The translations under genes and the position numbers were made by a program. Below are positions 44-20,606 of a stretch of DNA of 34,580 nt, in pieces. This stretch comes from Bacilli bacterium (GTDB lineage Bacteria; Bacillota_I; Bacilli_A; RF39; UBA660). Every line of letters starts with the position of its first letter. Position 1 is the stretch's first letter. The notes beneath the pieces were generated by a model. The model did not search any database, was not told the DNA's origin, and was given only the letters and a program-made list of their open reading frames with translations. Location: the NCBI GenBank assembly GCA_022795155.1, contig JAAWGF010000017.1, positions 1 through 34,580 of the forward strand, given 5' to 3'.

Positions 44-1978
<1,935 letters not shown>

Positions 1979-2214
1979 TAACAAACGTGGCACGTTTTGT
2001 TGAAACTCTGTTTCAATGAAAGTGGCGATAGTTTGTTACCACGACTTATGTAATTTTATTTTATTACGAAGTTTTAAAACATTATGGAATAAGTCCAAAG
2101 GGTCTAGGGAAGCCCTAGCCCACGAGGTAATTTTGATGGTACGTCAAAATACCTAGGGGGTTAAACATTTTGACAAAGCCAAAATATGTTTAAAATAAGG
2201 AGTGTGATTTATAT
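1979..2214. other. Structured intergenic region, candidate oriT/leader
   Basis: No gene is visible in these 236 bases, but several inverted repeats are. TAACAAAC at 1979-1986 pairs with GTTTGTTA at 2031-2038 and encloses a perfect hairpin, TTGAAAC (2000-2006) with GTTTCAA (2010-2016). Further right lie a GGGTCTAGGG...CCCTAGCCC element at about 2100-2120 and a near-perfect stem formed by GGTAATTTTGA and TCAAAATACC at about 2125-2151. Its position just before a small gene and the relaxase is where a mobilizable element would carry its transfer origin. I did not recognise a known MobV nick-site sequence, so oriT is an inference. A ribosome binding site (AAGGAGTG) for the next gene closes the region. 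Confidence 0.4.
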
Positions 2215-2427
2215 ATGGACTTTGAATATAAAAAGGAATTTTATAATTTAAAATATGGTAAATGTTATCTTATTGAAGAAAAGGAAAACTTGTATTTAAT
2301 CTATGCTGATAAGTGCTTTAATCACTACATTGTTTGTACTTATATTGAGCCAAACTCTAATGCAATGATGAATCTAGAGTTCTTCCCTACTTTAGAAGAT
2401 GCAAGAAAATATTTTAATGAAAAATAA
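2215..2427 (+). CDS. Small unknown protein upstream of relaxase
   Basis: This is a 70-residue protein of no family I recognise. It is soluble-looking, rich in aromatic residues (many Tyr and Phe) and acidic, with no membrane segment. A good ribosome binding site (AAGGAG) precedes the ATG. It ends 14 bases before the relaxase gene, so the two are very likely co-transcribed. The position suggests a small accessory factor of the mobilization module, but nothing in the sequence shows its role. Confidence 0.7.
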   Translation: MDFEYKKEFYNLKYGKCYLIEEKENLYLIYADKCFNHYIVCTYIEPNSNAMMNLEFFPTLEDARKYFNEK

Positions 2428-2441
2428 GGGGTTGATAGTTT

Positions 2442-3833
2442 ATGAACGAATTATCTTATTCACTACATTTAAGTAGTGATAAAAATAGAAAACCATCATC
2501 AAAAAATATGGCAAAGAATAATGCTTCTGGTAGTACTTCTTTATCAAATAATGCTATTCAAAATGCAAAGCAATTATCAAGAGTTGATAAACACAACTAT
2601 CGTAAATATGATAATAATAGTAAACTAATAGAAATAATAAAAGGTACTACCTCTCTTTATGAAGATGTTAAAAATCTCTATTTAGAAGAATTTGAAGAAT
2701 CACGACTTGAATATAATAAGGAGCAAGAAAATAAAGGTAGAAATGATAGAAAAATTACTGATTACTTTAAAAAGATAAGTGATAATACTAAAAACGATCT
2801 TGCTTGTGAGATTATTATAGAACTTGGAGATAAGAAATACTGGGACACTAAAGATGATAAATTTAAACATAAAATGACTAATGTCTTTAAAGAACAACTT
2901 AATGATTTACAAGAGTTAGTTCCTGATTTTAAAATAGCAAGTGGAATTATTCATTATGATGAAACTAGCCCACATCTTCATATTGTTGGTGTTCCAATAA
3001 AATATAAAACTAAAAATGGTATGTCTAAACAAGTTGGTAAAGGTGATGTTTTCACAAGAGATAGTTTACGTACTATTCAAGATAAAATGAGAACTTTATG
3101 CATTGCTAGTTTTAATAAAGAATATGGTCTTAACAATATCTTAAAGAAAAAAGAAAAAGGTAGAAATAAAGATATAAATGTTAAAGATATGACTAACTAT
3201 CAAGCAATGAAAGAAGAACTTAATAAGAATAAGAAAACACTTGAAATTGCCAGTAAAAAGTCTAATGAATTAGATAAAACTACAAATGATATTAAAGATA
3301 CTATGAATAATCTTAAAAAAGCACCAATAGTTAAAAATACTTACACTATTTCAGAGAGTGTTAGAAATAAGATTATTGAATATGTTGATAAGGTACAAGA
3401 TACTAACAAAGACTTTAAAAAGACAGAAATGTTATCAATAACCTTAAATAATGTAGATACTGAATTACAAGAAAATAGAGAAAAGATTAAGATACTAACT
3501 GAAAACAATAAGGCATTATCACTTAAAGTTGATACTTTATCTAAAAATATTGATAATAAAAACAAGGAAATTAAAGATTTAAAAAGTGATAACAAACACT
3601 TACAAGAAATGGTCGATTACTTCAAAAATCTATTTAGTAGATTAGTAAAATTCATCAAAAATAAGATGTTTGGTAAAGATAAAGAACGAGAAGATTATTG
3701 GAGAGTTTCAAAAGATATGTACGAACATGGAATATTTAGTGATGATACTATTGAATCAATCAAAGATGACTATGTTTTGAATAAAGAAAATGATAAACAT
3801 AAAGATAAAGGTCGAGATGACTTTGAATTATAA
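2442..3833 (+). CDS. MobV-family relaxase (Mob_Pre)
   Basis: This plasmid-mobilization relaxase would nick one strand at the element's oriT and carry it to a recipient using another element's conjugation machinery. The MobV signature is clear: HNYRKYD at residues 51-57 and the metal-binding HYDETSPHLH at 171-180, where His171, His178 and His180 are the expected ligands. The catalytic domain covers about residues 1-230. The remainder is a long lysine- and asparagine-rich coiled coil (about 245-405), normal for the family, and a short charged tail. At 463 residues the length is typical. It lies 14 bases after a small partner gene. The last 60 or so codons and the downstream flank are repeated in degraded form at 5299-5565. 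Confidence 0.92.
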   Translation: MNELSYSLHLSSDKNRKPSSKNMAKNNASGSTSLSNNAIQNAKQLSRVDKHNYRKYDNNSKLIEIIKGTTSLYEDVKNLYLEEFEESRLEYNKEQENKGRNDRKITDYFKKISDNTKNDLACEIIIELGDKKYWDTKDDKFKHKMTNVFKEQLNDLQELVPDFKIASGIIHYDETSPHLHIVGVPIKYKTKNGMSKQVGKGDVFTRDSLRTIQDKMRTLCIASFNKEYGLNNILKKKEKGRNKDINVKDMTNYQAMKEELNKNKKTLEIASKKSNELDKTTNDIKDTMNNLKKAPIVKNTYTISESVRNKIIEYVDKVQDTNKDFKKTEMLSITLNNVDTELQENREKIKILTENNKALSLKVDTLSKNIDNKNKEIKDLKSDNKHLQEMVDYFKNLFSRLVKFIKNKMFGKDKEREDYWRVSKDMYEHGIFSDDTIESIKDDYVLNKENDKHKDKGRDDFEL

Positions 3834-9072: not shown

Positions 9073-9167
9073 GTTATTGTCGATGATATTTTAATATAAA
9101 AGCATTTAAAATTTATTAGTCTATTTGTACATATACACAAAAATAATATTAATTTTATAAATAACTA

Positions 9168-9196
9168 TTGACAAAAGAATTAGTTTATTATATTAT
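9168..9196 (+). promoter_or_regulatory. Promoter of the RHH-like gene
   Basis: TTGACA at 9168-9173, a 17-base spacer and TATTAT at 9191-9196. Transcription would begin near 9203, so the gene must start at ATG 9213 with a very short leader. Confidence 0.75.
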
Positions 9197-9212
9197 GGTT
9201 GTGGTGGTATGT

Positions 9213-9827
9213 ATGGAAAATATAGATAATAGTATGATAAAAAGAATTGAAGAACAATTTGCTACTCCAAAAGATTTAAATAAACGACAGATTTCCGTAT
9301 TTTTAAAACCAGAAACTATAGAAGAATTAGATAAATCTATTGAAAAAGTAAAAGAATATTCTGATAAAAAAATAACTAGAAATACTATGATAGAGTTAGC
9401 AGTTGGAAATTTAATTGAGTGCATACCTATAGCACTTAAAAATTATGAAGAAAAAAATAAAAGTTTAAAAGAAGAATATGATACAGTTGTTTTTCCTTGC
9501 GACGAAACAGGTGTAGCTACTTTTATAAGAACAAAAAGTTGGTTTTATGTAAGAACTGATAAAAATAAAATAGATAATTTAAAGTATATTGCGCTTTATA
9601 CAGCATATCCAGTTCAGAGTATTACTCATTATGGTGTTATAGATAGATATGAACCTAGAGATTTTAATGGTAAAACAAAATATATTTATTATTTAAAAGG
9701 AGAACCAATTGAACTAGCTAAACCTATACCTTTAGGGAATATTAATCCTCAAAGTACTAGATCACCACGATATACAACTTTAAAGAAATTAAAAGCAGCC
9801 AAAGAATATGCTGACTTGGCAATTTAA
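9213..9827 (+). CDS. RHH-like N-terminal domain plus conserved C-terminal domain
   Basis: This is a 204-residue protein from ATG 9213, a start fixed by the promoter just upstream. Residues about 20-75 (KRQISVFLKPETIEELDKSI, then ITRNTMIELAVGNLIE) look like a ribbon-helix-helix DNA-binding domain. The C-terminal part, about 90-204, contains DTVVFPCDETGV, IALYTAYPVQSITHYG and the ending SPRYTTLKKLKAAK. I know this pattern as a recurrent domain, possibly of PUA/EVE-like fold, but cannot name it with certainty. It is divergent from the GppA/PurA-like operon and may regulate it through the 14-bp repeats. The small peptide gene at 9857 follows 29 bases later and may be partly co-transcribed. Confidence 0.75.
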   Translation: MENIDNSMIKRIEEQFATPKDLNKRQISVFLKPETIEELDKSIEKVKEYSDKKITRNTMIELAVGNLIECIPIALKNYEEKNKSLKEEYDTVVFPCDETGVATFIRTKSWFYVRTDKNKIDNLKYIALYTAYPVQSITHYGVIDRYEPRDFNGKTKYIYYLKGEPIELAKPIPLGNINPQSTRSPRYTTLKKLKAAKEYADLAI

Positions 9828-9856
9828 ATAAATGAGTGATGAGGAGGTGGGTTAAA

Positions 9857-9925
9857 ATGGAAGTAGTAACTATTCTTTTGGCTTTAATTATTTTACTTTT
9901 AGAACTGAAAAAAAGCACTTATTAG
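9857..9925 (+). CDS. Small hydrophobic peptide, candidate type I toxin
   Basis: This is a 22-residue peptide, MEVVTILLALIILLLELKK plus STY, with a near-perfect ribosome binding site (GAGGAGGTGG) seven bases upstream. A single membrane helix followed by lysines is the layout of holin-like type I toxins such as TxpA or BsrG relatives. A consensus promoter on the opposite strand (10026-9999) drives an antisense RNA that ends inside the last codons of this gene, and the gene has its own strong terminator. I infer a type I toxin-antitoxin pair. The sequence itself does not prove toxicity. Confidence 0.65.
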   Translation: MEVVTILLALIILLLELKKSTY

Positions 9926-9992
9926 TAATAATAAGCACTTAAGCAACTCATATAAAAACTTATATGAGTTTTTCCTTGTGATAAAACATCAC
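9908..9992 (-). ncRNA. Candidate antisense antitoxin RNA
   Basis: A perfect-consensus reverse-strand promoter would start an RNA near 9992. A reverse-strand terminator ends it: TAATAAGCAC (9929-9938) pairs with GCACTTATTA (9915-9924) across a 4-base loop, followed by seven reverse-strand T residues (9914-9908). The predicted RNA of about 85 bases is complementary to the 3' end of the peptide mRNA, including its stop codon and terminator. Confidence 0.65.
9945..9973 (+). terminator. Terminator of the small peptide gene
   Basis: AACTCATATAA (9945-9955) and TTATATGAGTT (9960-9970) form a perfect 11-bp stem with a 4-base loop, followed by a T-run. Confidence 0.85.
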
Positions 9993-9998
9993 AATACT

Positions 9999-10026
9999 AT
10001 TATAAAATAAATATACAGTTTGTCAA
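9999..10026 (-). promoter_or_regulatory. Consensus promoter of the antisense RNA
   Basis: On the reverse strand, TTGACA (10026-10021), a 16-base spacer and TATAAT (10004-9999). Both boxes match the sigma-A consensus exactly. No protein gene follows on that strand, which supports an RNA gene. Confidence 0.8.
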
Positions 10027-10128
10027 GGTTATATTATTTTAAGTTTTGTAAAAAACTGAAACTCAAATTTAAATATTTTTGTATTTTAGATAAGTTTATA
10101 TGATATAATTTATTAGTGAGGTGAAGTT

Positions 10129-20266: not shown

Positions 20267-20295
20267 TTGATTTATTGAATAATTTATGGTATATT
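20267..20295 (+). promoter_or_regulatory. Promoter of the small RNA
   Basis: TTGATT at 20267-20272, 17 bases, TATATT at 20290-20295. An alternative pair is TTGAAT (20275) with TATATA (20297). No protein gene follows on this strand before the terminator. Confidence 0.65.
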
Positions 20296-20302
20296 GTATA
20301 TA

Positions 20303-20417
20303 GATGAAAGAAATTTCATAAAATAAAAAAGGATATACTTAGCTTTCGTGTGGTTAGGTACATTCTATTGTTGGTATGCACACTAATACTCCAACTCGAG
20401 CGTTAGTGTGCATTTTT
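20303..20417 (+). ncRNA. Candidate antisense antitoxin RNA
   Basis: A promoter at 20267-20295 and a strong terminator at 20376-20417 define an RNA of about 115 bases with no open frame. Its terminator stem is complementary to the last codons, stop and 3' end of the peptide gene on the reverse strand. This 3'-overlap arrangement is known for type I antitoxins such as RatA and SR4. Confidence 0.6.
20376..20417 (+). terminator. Terminator of the small RNA
   Basis: ATGCACACTAA (20376-20386) and TTAGTGTGCAT (20403-20413) form a perfect 11-bp stem, followed by TTTTT. Confidence 0.85.
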
Positions 20418-20495
20418 AATAATAAATAGTATTACAAATACTAATATAAATAGGAGGATAATTATAATAAATTGAGATAATTCTCTTTTCGTCAT
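20403..20495 (-). CDS. Small hydrophobic peptide, candidate type I toxin
   Basis: This is a 30-residue peptide starting MTKRELSQ, then a helix of about 18 Ile/Leu/Phe/Val residues, and ending IIKNAH. The ribosome binding site is a perfect AAGGAGGTGA just before the ATG, so translation should be strong. Charged ends around one membrane helix match the layout of type I toxins. Its stop codon lies in the terminator stem of the opposite-strand RNA. No clear promoter was found for it. The family name cannot be given from sequence alone. Confidence 0.65.
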   Translation of the reverse strand: MTKRELSQFIIIILLFILVFVILFIIKNAH

Positions 20496-20606
20496 AAATA
20501 TCACCTCCTTTGAAAATTAATGTAAAGGAGTGCGCCTAACGCTAATCAAGAATAGCTACAAATATTTTTTATAAAAAGATATATTGTTGGATAGGAGAGA
20601 ATTATT

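Follow-up and report, generated by a model that had tools for sequence, protein, structure and literature searches.

A candidate type I toxin-antitoxin module of the 3′-overlap kind with a putative co-transcribed repressor gene in an uncultured gut lineage of Bacilli

Described systems and the anatomy of the locus

Detecting type I toxins by homology is very difficult. Among type II systems, omega-epsilon-zeta combines a protein antitoxin and an enzyme toxin with a separate ribbon-helix-helix repressor gene that heads the operon. The type I systems that most closely resemble the locus described here are those of Bacillus subtilis, in which TxpA/RatA of the skin element consists of a 59-aa toxin and a 222-nt antisense RNA, and BsrG/SR4 and BsrE/SR5 of the prophages consist of toxins of 38 and 30 aa with antisense RNAs of 180 and 163 nt, respectively (PMC7430163). 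Pairing at the 3′ ends leads to decay by RNase III in the case of txpA/RatA and bsrG/SR4 (PMC7430163). In the Fst / RNAI-RNAII par system of pAD1, the two RNAs have one terminator in common and overlap outside of the coding region, and in TisB/IstR-1 of E. coli transcription of the toxin, but not that of the antisense RNA, is controlled by LexA (PMC4147584). Fusions of a helix-turn-helix (HTH) domain to an ASCH domain are found in predicted toxin-antitoxin operons (PMC7641849).

We analysed a stretch of 34,580 nucleotides from a Bacilli bacterium, the whole of which is referred to as the window, and find in it a locus that is probably a type I toxin-antitoxin module with 3′ overlap, in which a putative repressor, co-transcribed with the toxin, would add another layer of control. 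Its predicted features are as follows.

9168–9196, plus strand: operon promoter, TTGACA-17-TATTAT, an 11/12 match
9213–9827, plus strand: first gene, a putative repressor of 204 aa with a ribbon-helix-helix-like N-terminus and an ASCH/PUA-like C-terminal domain
9842–9856, plus strand: ribosome-binding site AGGAGG and spacer of the peptide gene
9857–9925, plus strand: putative toxin peptide gene, ATG at 9857 and TAG at 9923–9925, 22 residues (MEVVTILLALIILLLELKKSTY)
About 9945–9973, plus strand: intrinsic terminator of the operon mRNA, 11-bp stem and short U tract, identified by eye and by fold
10026–9999, minus strand: antisense promoter TTGACA-16-TATAAT, a 12/12 match, with TTGACA at 10026–10021 and TATAAT at 10004–9999
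9908–9992, minus strand: putative antitoxin RNA of ~85 nt with three hairpins, its start inferred from the promoter and its end from the terminator
9908–9940, minus strand: terminator of the antisense RNA, a hairpin (about 9940–9913) and seven U (U tract 9914–9908)

A first-pass annotation of this DNA had proposed a 22-residue hydrophobic peptide with a near-perfect ribosome-binding site, and such a gene is present at 9857–9925, its AGGAGG being free of mismatches; AGGAGG-9-ATG without a mismatch occurs a single time in the window, at 9842–9859. The best 12-residue hydropathy of MEVVTILLALIILLLELKKSTY is 3.5, and the peptide has the form expected of a type I toxin, being small (<60 aa) and hydrophobic, with one membrane-spanning stretch and a polar or charged C-terminus. 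The sole strong plus-strand promoter, at 9168–9196, lies ahead of the frame at 9213–9827, the stop of which is 29 bases ahead of the peptide ATG. Because the promoter scan reported nothing beyond weak, chance-level matches on the plus strand between 9197 and 9857, the peptide gene probably lacks a promoter of its own and is the second gene of an operon headed by 9213–9827, making the toxin mRNA most likely dicistronic, a point that the first-pass annotation had not raised.

On the other strand, the consensus promoter that had been proposed is the only 12/12 site between 8500 and 11500, and folding supports the RNA of about 85 bases that was said to end at a second terminator in the last codons of the peptide. 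The predicted fold of this RNA has an energy of −26.2 kcal/mol versus a mean of −12.9 for shuffled sequences (z −4.75, or −5.35 with a slightly different end). Its terminator, which extends into the last peptide codons, forms a fully paired hairpin only as minus-strand RNA, with two G-U pairs there versus two C/A mismatches on the plus strand. The peptide's own terminator, likewise proposed in the first pass, is recognizable on the plus strand at 9945–9970 by eye and by fold. Both terminators are called from folds; the built-in terminator scan reported neither, because the stems are A+T-rich or G-U-paired. The two RNAs are predicted to overlap at their 3′ ends over about 9908–9973 (~65–70 bases), so that an antisense RNA with a predicted promoter and terminator lies opposite the toxin mRNA, as in type I systems. 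A search of Rfam gave no match.

The module resembles TxpA/RatA in its hydrophobic peptide and in a convergent antisense RNA that overlaps the 3′ end of the mRNA, for which RNase III decay would be expected, whereas it differs in the sizes of the peptide (22 aa) and RNA (~85 nt) and in that a regulator shares the operon of the toxin gene. With BsrG/SR4 and BsrE/SR5 it likewise has in common 3′-end pairing, here predicted, as well as small toxins and a small antisense RNA, although their antisense RNAs are longer, they have no co-transcribed regulator, and no sequence similarity to them was found. The genes of Fst par are convergent as well, and repeats common to the antisense RNA and leader in five of nine related loci (see below) recall its DRa and DRb; however, our module has two terminators, and its antisense RNA reaches the last codons. 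As in TisB/IstR-1, toxin transcription would be under a protein repressor, repression here being putative, whereas LexA is a global regulator encoded outside of the module and IstR-1 acts at the 5′ leader. A putative ribbon-helix-helix gene at the head of a toxin operon recalls omega-epsilon-zeta, except that an RNA would here take the place of the protein antitoxin, and a membrane peptide that of the enzyme. Finally, the HTH-ASCH proteins of predicted toxin-antitoxin-like GNAT-EVE operons (PMC7641849) share the fusion of a DNA-binding domain, in our case a putative one, to ASCH and the toxin-antitoxin-like setting, but their HTH is not a ribbon-helix-helix, and their partners are PIN, GNAT or EVE proteins instead of a peptide and an antisense RNA.

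Searches of Pfam and NCBIfam with the window peptide and its relatives, at E values up to 10, yielded chance matches only, and by these libraries the peptide would not belong by sequence with TxpA, BsrG or Fst. The likeness to TxpA and BsrG drawn in the first pass holds for the 3′-overlap anatomy, but the peptide gene is not free-standing: it apparently follows a regulator gene within one operon, and it shows no kinship to these toxins in the family libraries. The new element would be the co-transcribed ribbon-helix-helix/ASCH gene; the literature that we searched, the coverage of which was incomplete, yielded no description of a peptide and antisense RNA combined with such a gene.

Recurrence of the module with the first gene

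The window peptide is too short to search with on its own: tblastn against 291 family genomes returned out-of-frame chance matches only, a pattern of ribosome-binding site plus hydrophobic start applied to 386 genomes revealed no relative except the window gene itself among 30 fetched loci, and DNA similarity in plasmids and phages was limited to A+T-rich, chance-like matches. By eye, the matches of the pattern search were SecG-, stomatin- and LemA-like proteins rather than related peptides. Because the peptide search gave chance matches only, the protein of the upstream gene was used as the marker with which to look for conservation. Fourteen distinct members of this protein were found in the family, and no full-length relative was found outside of it in viral contigs, phages, or samples of the class and phylum; plasmids yielded only two GIY-YIG proteins, which share its C-terminal domain.

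Directly downstream of nine of the 14 homologs lies a short hydrophobic peptide of 19–26 residues, MEVVTILLALIILLLELKKSTY in the window and MDLVTPLLMCLIIIMILINTITYDKN, MESVLLSIIVIIILVDALKNKKY, METTLLCIIFIMFLLNVIKYKNN, METFAVYLVTIVLLINALKYHSN, MATLILTVFVITLLVTVVNRGY, MQIILLEIIVIMLLIESNSYRQN, MEYLIIFAILILLLEHHEK and MEYLVILVILILIVNQKDKK elsewhere. The conservation of the peptide frame and antisense promoter in related genomes, a check suggested by the first-pass annotation, was thus looked for and found in these nine loci, with diverged peptides. Identity of the relatives to the window peptide is 18–42%, in peptides too short for strong homology statistics, while the frame, ribosome-binding site and hydrophobic pattern are kept as the DNA diverges. 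The nine loci represent at least eight genera, including the window's own (G298 and G394 both fall under g88). Seven of the peptides start with ATG and two with an apparent ATA (METT... and METF..., in which the first residue is written as M by assumption). When only ATG starts are counted, a peptide follows seven of 14 upstream genes versus two of the 205 remaining genes in the fetched loci, and both of these control genes lack an antisense promoter. The ATA-start frames (L082 in G394 and L083 in G298) appear to begin ATA-GA(A/G)-AC, downstream of a good ribosome-binding site, and would represent either a rare AUA start or gene decay.

The 3′-overlap design, which had been likened to TxpA/RatA and BsrG/SR4, is predicted in the window and has the same arrangement in relatives. 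An antisense promoter with an exact TTGACA and an overall match of 11–12/12 is found in all nine peptide loci, 89–114 bases past the peptide stop, whereas none of 189 control genes has an exact-TTGACA antisense site of at least 11/12 in the same interval, and dinucleotide shuffles of the downstream interval (120 bases past the stop) reach 11/12 in ~1% of cases. The z scores of the nine antisense RNAs range from −2.5 to −6.2, and in eight of the nine loci the fold of the antisense strand is better than that of the corresponding sense strand. Because the hairpins are poorly aligned in a MAFFT alignment of all nine, covariation was read on the six closer antisense RNAs only, in which six pairs, in two hairpins, have changed on both sides; the hairpins are kept despite sequence change.

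A repeat of 12–14 nt is common to leader and antisense RNA in five of the nine loci; in the leader it lies immediately ahead of the ribosome-binding site and ends 13–17 bases before the start codon. As the antisense RNA of these loci contains a copy of the leader, the 3′ end of the mRNA should be able to fold back on the leader, with the antisense RNA and leader in competition, an arrangement that recalls both the Fst repeats and the hok foldback without being identical to either. Direct repeats of the Fst type, for reaching the toxin leader, are therefore seen in five of the eight other loci but not in the window locus, where the repeat is only 6 nt (P about 0.8); because it is absent there, mRNA decay is the more likely mode of RNA action in the window locus.

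The upstream end of the operon recurs as well, a strong promoter (11–12/12) preceding the first gene in all nine peptide-bearing loci. A comparison of the flanks of the 14 loci found no protein in common except for that of the first gene, and therefore the parts of the module recur together at different chromosomal sites. In a tree of the first-gene protein, peptide-bearing members are found in both deep clades, so the association of the peptide with the first gene would be either old or gained or lost more than once. In a sister species (L007), the interval between a Ppx-like gene and cysS holds other genes; this interval, at 9100–10060 of the window, may be a variable site. The family of 19–26-residue peptides is absent from the family libraries searched, and a larger, searchable gene that marks these peptides makes the family findable in an uncultured gut lineage of Bacilli.

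The first-gene protein and its putative operator

The N-terminus of the 204-aa protein has a strand-helix-helix pattern resembling that of ribbon-helix-helix DNA-binding proteins, with a strand at residues 24–31 according to motif and alignment, and helices at 33–47 and 56–82 in the structural model. The model has an overall pLDDT of 71; its N-terminal part is below 65 and has no Pfam family match, and low values would not be surprising in a domain that must dimerize in order to fold. Modelling is better for the C-terminal half, which matches structures of the ASCH protein of Zymomonas mobilis (ZmASCH) with an E value of 5e-4. ASCH is a nucleic-acid-binding fold of the PUA superfamily. Pfam and NCBIfam searches with the whole protein gave no family above the cut-off. 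The Zymomonas protein is reported to be a ribonuclease specific for single-stranded RNA (PMC5615036). An ASCH-like C-terminal domain is also present in proteins of ~330 aa (L061–L065, L069, L091–L095), and the plasmid matches of this domain are annotated as members of the GIY-YIG nuclease family.

Palindromes CTATATGTT..AACATATAG adjoin the operon promoter in relatives, exceeding shuffled sequences in G064 and G298 (0/40) and being borderline in G394 (2/40). Because a shuffle test found no palindrome beyond chance upstream of the window operon, we infer autorepression there from the relatives and from the type of protein. If the first-gene protein does repress the operon, transcriptional control in the style of type II systems would be joined to the RNA control of type I, and the ASCH-like domain turns the signal that releases the toxin into a directly testable question.

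Proposed mechanism and alternative explanations

The comparison shows how the parts are laid out in the sequence, that they recur and are linked, and that they covary; from this, a course of transcription, pairing in the cell, toxicity, neutralization and repression can be proposed. The promoter at 9168–9196 would drive a single operon mRNA encoding the ribbon-helix-helix/ASCH protein and then the 22-residue peptide, which would insert into the membrane and be toxic in excess. A constitutive convergent promoter would supply the ~85 nt antisense RNA, which would pair with the 3′-terminal 65–70 bases of the operon transcript, a segment that runs from the final toxin codons as far as the terminator, leading to cleavage by RNase III as with RatA and txpA mRNA. 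The first-gene protein probably represses the operon promoter and not the antisense promoter, so that toxin production would require either relief of repression or loss of the antisense RNA. An extension of this scheme, which we regard as unlikely, casts the first gene as a modification- or RNA-sensing repressor that silences the operon until phage DNA or RNA is met. The locus would then be a defence system of three parts, with a type I toxin restrained by a sensor-repressor together with an antisense RNA.

Alternatively, the peptide could be a small membrane partner, an anchor or sensor, of the ribbon-helix-helix/ASCH protein instead of a toxin, with the antisense RNA tuning its level. The tight linkage of the peptide to the first gene across nine loci and at least eight genera is what such a partnership would predict, but we consider it improbable, since five of the 14 first-gene homologs have no peptide and the peptide family also occurs standalone, separated from the first gene. 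Searching with a profile built from the nine peptides detected two tandem copies elsewhere in the same genome, ~440 bases apart, of the sequence MEYLVIL(V/A)VLILLL(D/G)RNSKNKD:

Contig C30, 21326–21825, minus strand: tandem standalone copies L104 and L110, MEYLVILVVLILLLDRNSKNKD and MEYLVILAVLILLLGRNSKNKD

In both tandem copies an antisense terminator and promoter are present, and ~25 bases of the leader are complementary to the 3′ end of the same copy. Each also has a second frame that overlaps the toxin and is preceded by a stronger ribosome-binding site, and this overlapping leader frame appears to resemble hok/mok coupling. Tandem copies, an antisense RNA and a long 5′–3′ foldback are usual for type I toxins. 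The sister species has one standalone copy (L097), and a LepA-like gene adjoins both this copy and one of the two tandem copies; in another genus there is a diverged standalone copy, the antisense half of which looks lost. Because standalone copies with antisense anatomy exist away from the first gene, the role of toxin is more likely for the peptide than that of a partner of the first gene.

These standalone copies would also suit a classical free-standing pair of the TxpA/RatA type, which by chance lies behind an upstream gene and has a toxin promoter that escaped detection. This reading is very unlikely: a promoter of at least 10/12 is absent from the 250 bases upstream of the peptide in eight of nine loci, the ninth having a weak 10/12 match; operon promoter and peptide are present or absent together, no promoter of 10/12 or better preceding the first gene in the five peptide-less loci; and linkage to the first gene recurs in nine loci of at least eight genera. 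Least probable of all, although the operon is one transcript by its anatomy, is an antisense RNA that serves as a general 3′-end regulator or decay signal, mainly for the ribbon-helix-helix/ASCH gene and with the peptide as a by-product, since no comparable antisense unit was seen downstream of the five homologs without a peptide, and the peptide frame, ribosome-binding site and hydrophobic pattern have been kept through DNA divergence.

Apart from the module at 9168–10026, the window contains an unrelated second candidate of the same design at 20267–20512, where a minus-strand peptide, MTKRELSQFIIIILLFILVFVILFIIKNAH, has a strong ribosome-binding site. A plus-strand RNA opposite to it (about 20309–20425, z −5.7) is predicted to terminate in a hairpin that lies within the final peptide codons, and its promoter is weak (9/12). 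The window also encodes a large serine recombinase (65–1978) and a Mob/Pre relaxase (2442–3833), and the region 65–3833 is probably part of an integrated mobilisable element.
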